Assembly: GCF_010233585.1 (NCBI RefSeq)
Contig: NZ_CP045997.1
Span: 5,682,065 to 5,746,064 of the forward strand
From: Spirosoma endbachense
Lineage (GTDB): Bacteria > Bacteroidota > Bacteroidia > Cytophagales > Spirosomataceae
Direction of reading: 5' to 3'
DNA length: 64,000 nucleotides
Shown here: one piece after another, positions 32,086-61,618 of the stretch
Layout of the letters: each line of letters begins with the position of its first letter
Numbering within the stretch: the stretch's first letter is position 1
Made by a program: the position numbers and the translations under genes
The notes under the pieces: generated by a model
What the model was told of the DNA's origin: nothing
The model's database searches: none
Seen by the model: the letters and a program-made list of their open reading frames with translations, nothing else

Positions 32086-32118
32086 AAACCTATAAGGTTT
32101 GTGAAACCTTATAGGTTT
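32086..32118. repeat. Palindrome AAACCTATAAGGTTT-GTG-AAACCTTATAGGTTT
   Basis: Two perfect 15-bp arms (32086-32100, 32104-32118) with a 3-base loop; each arm is itself nearly palindromic. From general knowledge, similar AAACCTATAAGGTTT repeats are scattered in Bacteroidota genomes. It lies 45 bases before the gene at 32164 and may be a dispersed repeat or a transcription end. Confidence 0.75.
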
Positions 32119-59308: not shown

Positions 59309-60313
59309 ATGCTTCGCACTGACTGGACCCGTGCTGAAATCACCGAAATATATAATTCACCCGTTCTGGACCTCGTTTATCGGGCTGCAACCGTACATCG
59401 TCAGCATCACGACCCGCAGGAGGTGCAGGTTTGCACGCTGTTATCGGTTAAGACCGGCGGTTGTCCCGAAGATTGTGCGTACTGTCCGCAGGCAGCCCGT
59501 TACCATACGGCCGTGAAGGTTCACAAACTAATGGAGGTCGATGAGGTACTGACTGCTGCGAAACGTGCCAAAGACACCGGTAGCACGCGCTTTTGTATGG
59601 GAGCCGCCTGGCGCGAAGTGCGCGATAACCGCGATTTCGACAAGGTGCTGGAAATGGTTGAGGGCGTCAATGAAATGGGCCTGGAAGTGTGCTGCACTCT
59701 TGGAATGCTAACCGAAAGCCAGGCGCAAAAACTGAAAGATGCGGGTCTGTACGCCTACAACCACAACCTCGATACGAGTGAAGAGTTCTACGGTGACATC
59801 ATCAGTACCCGTACCTACGACGACCGTTTAGATACGCTTGGTCATGCTCGTAAAGCAGGTATTTCAGTTTGTTCTGGTGGCATCATCGGCATGGGTGAAT
59901 CGGATCAGGATCGCATTGGGATGCTGCACACGCTGGCTACACTCCCTCAACATCCTGAATCGGTTCCGGTAAATGCCCTCGTACCCGTAGAAGGCACACC
60001 GCTGGAAGATCAGCCTCGCGTATCGGTTTGGGAAATGATTCGGATGATTGCTACGGCCCGGATTATCATGCCCAAAGCGATGGTACGGCTATCTGCCGGT
60101 CGGGTTCGGATGAATACGGAAGAACAGGCATTGTGTTTTCTGGCCGGAGCCAATTCTATTTTTGCTGGTGACAAACTCCTGACTACCCCAAATCCTGATG
60201 AAGATCAGGATCAGCAGTTGTTTCAGACACTGAACATCCGACCCCGAAAAGCATTCAAGAATGGGGACAGGCCATCGGTAGTTTTTGAACAAATTCCGCT
60301 AGCTGCGATTTAA
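59309..60313 (+). CDS. bioB: Biotin synthase
   Basis: 334 residues. The radical-SAM cluster is Cys52, Cys56, Cys59 in [20 protein letters not shown] and [37 protein letters not shown] are the later bioB motifs. It inserts sulfur into dethiobiotin. The other bio genes are not in the window. The stop is followed directly by a REP-like palindrome. Confidence 0.97.
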
Positions 60314-60315
60314 AA

Positions 60316-60384
60316 GCGATTGTTTTTTGATTAAGGCGTGCCACGGTTCAAAACCGTGGCACGCCTTAATCAAAAAACAATCGC
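60316..60384. repeat. Perfect 33-bp palindrome at the left edge of the RAYT gene
   Basis: Arms 60316-60348 and 60352-60384 are fully complementary with a CAA loop. The inner 16 bases AAGGCGTGCCACGGTT are shared with the copy at 60994; the outer 17 bases are specific to this locus but mirrored perfectly. It starts three bases after the bioB stop. This is a REP-type sequence of the neighbouring transposase. Confidence 0.88.
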
Positions 60385-60398
60385 ATCTCATTGATTCA

Positions 60399-60992
60399 GT
60401 GTACTTTGTAGAAGACAAAATCTACCACGTTTATAACCGTGGCAACAATAAACAACCTATTTTTTTTAGACCAGAGAACTATATTTATTTTCTATACAAA
60501 GTCCGGCGATATATTAGACCAAACTGTAATTTACTGGCCTACTGTTTACTGCCCAATCATTTTCATTTTCTCTTTCAGGCCACATCAATGTCTGTATTCA
60601 TGAAACAGACTACAGTCGTGACACAAACACAACTGAGCGATGGATTTAAGAATTTATTGAGTACGTATACCCAGGCAGTCAATAAGCAGGAGAATCGCGT
60701 TGGGTCTTTATTTTCTCAAAATACAAAAGCAAAACTGGTGAGCTGTGATGAAACCAAGACTGACTATAGCTTACTGTGTCTAAATTACATTCACCAAAAT
60801 CCGGTTGAGGCTGGACTGATTCAAATGATCGAGGACTGGCCTTATTCTTCATACCTGGATTATGCTCATCGTCGAAATGGAACATTGTGTTCTAAAGAAA
60901 TAGCCTACCAGCTCATTGATGCGGATTGGGATAATTTTAGTGCATTTTCAGAAGCTATACTTCCAGAAGAATCGATTCGTAATTTGTATTAA
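60399..60992 (+). CDS. REP-associated tyrosine transposase (RAYT, Y1 family)
   Basis: About 197 residues from the GTG at 60399 (VEDKIYHVYNRGNNKQPIFF is the family start); the frame is open further but within the palindrome. The Y1 transposase signature is complete: HUH metal site LLPNHFHFLF, and YIHQNPVEAGLI with the catalytic tyrosine near residue 125. RAYTs cut and rejoin single-stranded REP hairpins. It is flanked on both sides by perfect palindromes with a common core. Confidence 0.9.
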   Translation: MYFVEDKIYHVYNRGNNKQPIFFRPENYIYFLYKVRRYIRPNCNLLAYCLLPNHFHFLFQATSMSVFMKQTTVVTQTQLSDGFKNLLSTYTQAVNKQENRVGSLFSQNTKAKLVSCDETKTDYSLLCLNYIHQNPVEAGLIQMIEDWPYSSYLDYAHRRNGTLCSKEIAYQLIDADWDNFSAFSEAILPEESIRNLY

Positions 60993-60993
60993 T

Positions 60994-61078
60994 CCGTTTT
61001 CGGGAATTTGGAAGGTATAAGGCGTGCCACGGTTCAAAACCGTGGCACGCCTTATACCTTCCAAATTCCCGAAAACGG
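60994..61078. repeat. Perfect 41-bp palindrome at the right edge of the RAYT gene
   Basis: Arms 60994-61034 and 61038-61078 are fully complementary with the same CAA loop as at 60316. The inner 16 bases are shared; the outer 25 are specific but mirrored. Confidence 0.88.
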
Positions 61079-61123: not shown

Positions 61124-61618
61124 ATGATGTCGGTACCAACGATTCGTTTTATTGCTGTGCTGCTGATTGGTCAATTAGGATTGAATGCCTGTCAGACAAA
61201 CCCAGATATTGTACTGCCAAGCACGGCCATCGGTGCTAATCCGAAAGTTACTGTTTCTGACTGGATCGCTATTACTGATGAAACCTGGACAATCAGCGCT
61301 AAAGCTCCCCAATTACACATTGCCGGTTTTGTCGATAGCGCCGTTACGAATTCCGTTGTCGAAAATGGATTAGTCGTTGCTTTCTACCGCCACTCGGCCG
61401 TAGAAGAGGTGTATCCGCTACCGGTATCGATTGGAAATCAGGCAATTTCATTCACCTATTACGCCATGAATGACAAAGGTATAATCAGCTTTCAACAGAA
61501 AGCTGGACAAACGCTCGATGGCGAATACCGTTGGATTGTGGTTCCGAAAGAGGCTGCCAAAAACGTAAACTGGACCGATTACGACGAGGTGAAACAGGCG
61601 TTAAATCTAAAGGAATAA
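61124..61618 (+). CDS. Hypothetical lipoprotein
   Basis: 164 residues. Signal with hydrophobic 8-18 and lipobox LGLNAC (Cys about 23). The mature part is predicted all-beta (VTVSDWIAITDETWTISAKAPQLHIAGFVDSAVTNSVVENGLVVAFYRHSAVEEVYPLPVSIGNQAISFTYYAMNDKG). No family was recognised; similar short lipoproteins are common in Cytophagales. It lies just after the second palindrome, with no coupled neighbour. Confidence 0.75.
   Translation: MMSVPTIRFIAVLLIGQLGLNACQTNPDIVLPSTAIGANPKVTVSDWIAITDETWTISAKAPQLHIAGFVDSAVTNSVVENGLVVAFYRHSAVEEVYPLPVSIGNQAISFTYYAMNDKGIISFQQKAGQTLDGEYRWIVVPKEAAKNVNWTDYDEVKQALNLKE

Follow-up and report, generated by a model that had tools for sequence, protein, structure and literature searches.

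The window analysed here is a stretch of 64,000 nucleotides, positions 5,682,065–5,746,064 of a genome that consists of a single contig with 10,326,072 bases. This genome is labelled G000 in a set of 36 genomes of one genus, Spirosoma (labels G000–G0xx, with locus labels of the form Lxxx). In the part of the window described in Table 1, a RAYT gene lies between two palindromes downstream of bioB, which could be matched in 34 of the 36 genomes. The left palindrome begins after a gap of 2 nt from the end of bioB, and the right one after a gap of 1 nt from the end of the RAYT gene. The frame of the latter is also open from a TTG at 60327, within the left palindrome. For the right neighbour, no Pfam family was found above the cut-off.

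Table 1. Features at the RAYT locus, with positions counted from the first letter of the window.
Feature	Position	Strand	Details
bioB (biotin synthase-like), left neighbour	59309..60313	+	Radical_SAM and BATS domains
Left palindrome	60316..60384		arms 60316-60348/60352-60384, 33 bp, 100% complementary, loop CAA
REP core of left palindrome	60338..60362		GTGCCACGGTT-CAA-AACCGTGGCAC
RAYT (HUH/Y1 transposase-like) gene	60399..60992	+	GTG start, 197 aa, NHFH and YIHQNP motifs
Right palindrome	60994..61078		arms 60994-61034/61038-61078, 41 bp, 100% complementary, loop CAA
REP core of right palindrome	61024..61048		
Right neighbour ORF	61124..61618	+	164 aa; directly after bioB in G002 and G013

The inverted-repeat search confirms the original prediction of palindromes with 33 and 41 bp per arm, CAA loops and perfect outer mirroring (100%). 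A shared inner core is also present in both, but it is 17 bp per arm long and not 16, and this common part amounts to a 37-nt direct repeat (100%). Outside this common part the left and right palindromes are unlike, and each is perfectly mirrored within itself. Hairpins with arms of at least 11 bp and loops of 3–12 were absent from five first-order Markov copies of the window, and the REP core has 2 matches in the window vs 0.00 expected, so the probability that the pair arose by chance is negligible.

We now turn to the protein. Its sole NCBIfam match at E≤1 is NF047646 (REP_Tyr_transpos), with 52 bits and thus below the cut-off of 80, and in the PDB only E. coli TnpAREP (4er8, E 0.005) matches at this threshold. 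The Pfam family PF01797 (Y1_Tnp) gives 21.1 bits, below the cut-off of 23, and a search of G000 with this family had no matches. Both the HUH motif (N54 H55 F56 H57) and the tyrosine motif (Y131 I H Q N P) are intact. None of 15 homologs deviates at H55, H57 or Y131. From the YIH[QN]NP motif described in PMC6006769 and the alignment with 4er8, Y131 would be the catalytic tyrosine. A protein search of G000 returns this gene and one relative that is 35% identical, while the nearest RAYT in another genome of the genus is found in G003 (73%). There, as here, REPs stand on both flanks and have copies elsewhere. The RAYT and REP identity that had been proposed is supported by the only NCBIfam and PDB matches and by the dispersed core (see below). 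A grouping with IS200, on which the proposal could have failed, is not seen, since no IS200 model in NCBIfam matches the protein at E≤1.

Judged by these features, the gene resembles the Bacteroidota RAYT group known as Bertels group 5 or Quentin TnpAREP subclass 2.6, with which it shares the host phylum, the HUH motif and YIH[QN]NP (PMC6006769). For this subclass an insertion of ca 21 aa between alphaC and beta4 and a median HUH-Y distance of 82 are reported (PMC6006769); the spacing from H57 to Y131 is 74 residues. The HUH consensus given there is NH[LIV]H, compared to NHFH here. Subclass 2.6 genes are described as having "atypical secondary structures" on their flanks, which recur elsewhere and lack a GT[AG]G head, similar to the present case. 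However, in the parts of that account dealing with them the structures are weaker, with no mention of locus-specific mirrored outer arms, while here arms reach 41–42 bp (PMC6006769). The two flanking palindromes are taken to be copies of the RAYT's own REP.

The original prediction regarded gene and palindromes as a self-contained unit; that such a unit moves as a block is not supported. The block follows bioB in G000, G004 and G003. In G004 the gene is broken by a 269-bp deletion in its middle (query 1331-1599), and the protein search recovers two pieces only, which leaves one RAYT at bioB in each of G000 and G003 within this one genus. The distance from bioB to the downstream gene is 148 nt in G002 and 144 nt in G013, compared to 813 in G000, and no second copy of the block was found in G000. 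Neither several copies nor differing sites in relatives, as would be typical of IS200/IS605 mobility, were seen. Since the site is the same in three genomes, is without the block in two others, and has no second copy in G000, the block appears to have entered, or to have been lost, at the bioB site and to have stayed there. We also considered that the core could derive from the RAYT gene, which contains GTTTATAACCGTGGCA, 14/16 like the core; the G003 gene differs at this point, and the likeness was dismissed as coincidence.

A genome-wide search shows that the core is not confined to the locus. With at most 2 mismatches, GTGCCACGGTT-NNN-AACCGTGGCAC (family A1) occurs at 28 places in G000 and 33 in G004, and 11 of the 36 genomes are positive, while the reversed control gives 0 in all 36. 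A search that uses the inner 23 bases and allows 3 mismatches yields 31 places in G000 (control 1), from which L028 (an old hairpin of other origin, present in four relatives), L031 (chance) and L029 (decayed, with 4-bp arms) were dropped. In G000, arms of at least 20 bp are found in 26/28 copies and 16/28 are perfect throughout; in G004 the numbers are 28/31 and 24/31 of the measured copies, with the place at 3815938 outside the measured set and another, which shares locus L099, not among the 31. The arm ends were set by an extension score that favours paired columns. A fixed-offset profile is free of this bias and gives for pairs 16–28 a pairing of 0.83–0.97 in G000 (29 loci) and 0.74–1.0 in G004 (31 loci), vs 0–0.6 for family B (15 loci, see below). 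Predicted ORFs contain only 2 of 27 loci examined in G000, the other 25 being outside them, as expected for dispersed intergenic REPs. What the Spirosoma palindromes have in common is mainly the tip; most measured copies of A1 and of a second family, A2 (see below), have additional arm beyond 15 bp that is mirrored within the locus and largely unrelated between loci. The description of the two palindromes as target hairpins with locus-specific outer arms is correct, but such mirrored arms typify many dispersed copies and not this unit. In one case (L176, the G004 ortholog of L013), an array of CCGCGGCTGCGACCGT units takes the place of the palindrome tip, so that a repeat is nested in a hairpin.

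An arrangement of a RAYT between inverted, dispersed palindromes is also that of the classical REP/REPtron, which however has a GTAG head, while here there is none and mainly the tip is common to the copies (PMC2817692, PMC3733652). For REPs of Stenotrophomonas, pairing was noted to be preserved, "suggesting selection for complementary mutations" (Nunvar 2010, PMC2817692). The GT[AG]G foot tetranucleotide was not found, the outer positions being unconserved between copies; subclass 2.6 is likewise described without it (PMC6006769). TIRtrons and double palindromic TIRs also place Y1 transposase genes between long, partly self-complementary repeats, but those are families of like repeats, whereas the arms here are locus-specific (Di Nocera 2013, PMC3733652).

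Long arms are a property of some families only. Family B (AAACCTATAAGGTTT) occupies 47 places in G000 and is linked to the second RAYT of this genome (L149, at 811488), the relative mentioned above. Arms of at least 20 bp are found in 1/35 measured copies (L353), the others being near 15 bp, which is to be compared with the 26/28 of A1 (p = 3e-14). In G004, 15 of 18 B places were measured, and one (L335) reaches 21 with a mismatch. Around 1500 in L353, the tail AAATTGGCCGAG, which is seen beside many B copies, is mirrored on both sides. One B copy, AAACCTATAAGGTTT-GTG-AAACCTTATAGGTTT, also lies in the window, at 32086-32118. Outside the genus, the A1 core was found at 34 places, in 7 of the genomes searched, and the 19 distinct copies measured have arms of 12–17, all 19 near 15 bp. 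In genus g13, a RAYT-like ORF (L384, 213 aa) has an A1 core with 15-bp arms at either end. Among 79 Bacteroidota RAYT loci beyond L243, 24 have hairpins on both sides that share at least 12 inner bases, and in 21 of these both arms are 12–19 bp (the exceptions are L250, L253 and L291); the same script found no such shared hairpins at the remaining 55. At L302 and L291, a palindrome of 45–46 bp per arm is present on one side, possibly an independent case of arm growth. A second Spirosoma core, A2 (ACGCCATATCT), is present at 232 places in 12/36 genomes, with arms of at least 20 bp in 35/36 distinct copies measured (range 16–42; L358/L395 and L370/L396 are the same copies and were counted once). 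The surroundings of the A2 RAYTs of six genomes, all of this single genus, largely match.

A number of simple causes for the long arms were considered and rejected. Long hairpins are not a general host trait, since palindromes without a listed core (score ≥18) number 28 per 386 kb of Spirosoma blocks vs 8 per 196 kb beside other Bacteroidota RAYTs, that is, 7.3 vs 4.1 per 100 kb and no clear excess. Here at least 3 of the 28 are missed REP variants, local REPs seem to be among the 8, and a homologous hairpin present in several blocks was counted once for each. Age is not the cause either, as eight B locus pairs common to G000 and G004 keep ca 15 bp (L335 alone having 21 with a mismatch; the pair L351/L335 was matched on one side only). 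Nor is the RAYT clade, because in a tree of 31 RAYTs those with long arms do not group together but are scattered; the tree was built from hand-chosen rows and labels (19 of 80 Bacteroidota loci and 13 Spirosoma genes, with L314 dropped as it had no sequence). Position does not differ, A1, A2 and B alike being mostly near gene 3' ends. Perfect palindromes with 18–31 bp per arm, loops of 0–1 nt and none of the listed REP cores also stand at L429:6947, L429:7345, L430:10750 and L428:14119.

How the arms change was followed in 20 orthologous palindrome pairs of G000 and G004, using the first 30 base pairs of each and retaining L029 despite its exclusion from the 28 loci above. We find 39 mirrored vs 48 one-sided substitutions. 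Mirrored indels amount to 17 nt, and a further 14 indels are unmatched. The one-sided substitutions are concentrated, with 32/48 in L010, L011, L015, L024 and L029. Transversions make up 25/39 of the mirrored changes vs 133/312 of the changes in the flanks (p=0.016; limited to flanks at least 75% alike, which differ by 8.4%), and as the mirrored changes are transversion-rich they do not follow the G-U route of RNA compensation. G-T combinations among the outer pairs of the delimited arms number 2/560 in G000 and 0/594 in G004, and 5/308 and 5/341 among the core pairs. The loops are the same in 9 of the pairs, exactly inverted in 3 and changed in 8. At six loci (L010/L102, L011/L081, L015/L110, L014/L097, L027/L098 and L009/L092), the flank mirrors the opposite side in one genome only, as judged by eye. 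At one site common to G002 (L418) and G013 (L419), with surroundings 80% alike, the A2 palindromes are both perfect while their outer arms are unrelated by eye. Joint change of both arms and loop inversion, the two marks of template switching, and one-sided overwriting are all observed in individual pairs.

The explanation that we favour, with moderate confidence, is that the RAYT has kept to one place while the Spirosoma REPs seed longer palindromes through fold-back DNA copying (template switching), which maintains and in part extends the arms. The ancestral REP was probably a hairpin of ca 15 bp with a 3-nt loop, and some Spirosoma REP families would act as seeds of longer palindromes. A strand bearing the REP hairpin would fold back and be copied along its own arm, such that one arm, at times together with the flank next to it, becomes a mirror copy of the other. 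Such copying would keep the arms perfect despite sequence turnover, invert loops, and could lengthen the arms with local sequence. That the arms are maintained by copying is well supported, and template switching during replication would be the agent. Homogenised arms, loop inversion and joint pair changes as seen here are also described for template-switch (quasipalindrome) mutation (PMC8794818, PMC8604942). Those studies deal with RNA genes and yeast coding inverted repeats, whereas here dispersed REP hairpins are concerned, and the genome that carries them also has a REP family that is mostly unextended.

It is important to note that generic template switching does not by itself say where lengthening happens, because the B copies shared between genomes are mostly unlengthened and the same core in g13 has 15-bp arms beside a RAYT-like gene. 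Evidence against copying also comes from the 48 substitutions that are one-sided and the 14 indels that are unmatched. Intrastrand switching is reported to predict an excess of G-C and U-A (Monttinen and Loytynoja 2022, PMC8794818). The outer 5' arms are indeed G/T-rich in 21/25 A1 copies of G000, 23/28 of G004, and in 17/19 A2 copies of G002 and 15/16 of other genomes. However, the predicted excess fails in one of these five sets, the A1 copies of other Spirosoma (3/12), and in the coreless palindromes (12 plus, 13 minus and 3 equal, n=28), so the base bias falls short of proof of fold-back copying. The replication strand was considered as a cause of this bias and set aside, the skew from 38 loci being too weak to use.

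Another option considered is that palindromes with arms of ca 30 bp are mobile as such and insert whole, after which the outer arms drift and selection for an RNA hairpin (a terminator or mRNA stabiliser) keeps the pairing. We regard this as unlikely. The outer arms of A1 are slightly alike in register (0.348 in G000 and 0.334 in G004, vs 0.24–0.28 when slid), some of them recall TAGGCCTTTCGC..GAGCC by eye, and pairing declines near pair 31, all of which would suit a unit of this size; but the A2 outer arms of G002 are hardly alike (0.312 vs 0.26–0.30) though many of their cores are identical. A role in RNA would fit with the location, since 13/24 copies in G000 and 16/28 in G004 that have a gene ending towards them are at most 20 nt from the predicted stop. 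Against this option stand the excess of transversions, the rarity of G-T pairs, the inverted loops, and family B, whose copies are similarly placed but lack long arms.

The sites that are empty in relatives bear on several of these readings. The gap is without a hairpin for L012 in G004, G013 and G002 (an old hairpin adjoins this gap), for L013 in G002, G003, G032 and G013, for L021 in G013, G003 and G032, and for L011 in G013. Four A2 sites of G002 are similarly empty in G013, one of them also in G000 and another also in G000, G004 and G032. For L012 and L013, neither outer arm was found in the flanks of the relatives' empty sites, which counts against copying from the flank and would suit arrival with the arms already present, as in whole-palindrome insertion. 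At the A2 sites L421 and L424, a short piece of one arm is seen in the relative's flank, although this is by eye and weak.

The lack of gap hairpins at L012, L013 and L021, and at each of the four A2 sites in at least one relative, speaks on the other hand against REPs inserting into the tips of pre-existing hairpins such as terminators, with the outer arms being the old hairpin. This we consider quite improbable. It would account for the plain hairpin after bioB in G032, which begins with CAAAGTAGC, the same stem (by eye) with which the REP palindrome of G003 begins, and for a site where G003 has an 18-bp loopless palindrome and G002 an A2 REP, the two sharing a TGCTGAC stem. REP dimers inside longer palindromes are also described in other bacteria (Di Nocera 2013, PMC3733652). 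However, loss of the core could yield the same coreless hairpins, the second palindrome of G004 being a candidate example.

We have also considered that the RAYT writes the outer arms, by nicking at the foot of the REP hairpin and letting the freed 3' end copy the neighbouring flank of the same strand, to which we give little credence. Long arms do go with particular RAYT-linked families (A1, A2 and those beside L123 and L130) and not with B of the same genome. Moreover, A1 arms of at least 20 bp are found in 60/67 copies of the genomes with the A1 RAYT or its remnant (G000 26/28, G004 28/31 and G003 6/8), vs 8/14 in eight genomes that lack the A1 RAYT (p 0.008; a partial sample of the copies, from G005, G006, G007, G009, G022, G027, G029 and G032). 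But those 8 are long though a RAYT match is absent (G005, G027 and G029) or only distant, and the shorter arms could be decay, so that the comparison leans towards either some effect of the RAYT or decay after its loss. The broken RAYT of G004, the short arms of the same core beside the RAYT-like gene of g13, and the at least three changes that the long-arm state needs on the tree also argue against it. It is similarly doubtful that certain Spirosoma RAYTs are palindrome-writing enzymes, whose insertion or re-nicking would turn a 15-bp REP into a palindrome of 30–40 bp of local sequence, which genomes that lost the RAYT would keep and which would then shrink.

The REP/RAYT family is already known, while the behaviour of the mirrored arms is apparently undescribed. 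A literature search on Spirosoma/Bacteroidetes RAYT/REP, palindromes, template switching and terminators, with thin coverage of subscription journals, gave no locus-specific mirrored REP arms among the matches listed. Perfect long hairpins that hold their pairing through sequence change are usually taken as a sign of selection on RNA. The dispersed copies, for which the mostly unextended family B and the A1 core outside the genus serve as controls, point instead to DNA copying. If fold-back copying is right, each genome would offer dozens of marked sites for timing and dissecting the growth of hairpins and the copying of one arm onto the other. It would also be a warning that perfectly mirrored changes do not prove a functional RNA stem.

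Finally, it can be mentioned that in most of 30 genomes of the genus (L051-L080) bioB is followed, by eye, by a long hairpin, and that the one in G018 has 40-bp arms. The sequences of these hairpins are often unrelated, which gives the impression of terminators that turn over through mirrored changes.
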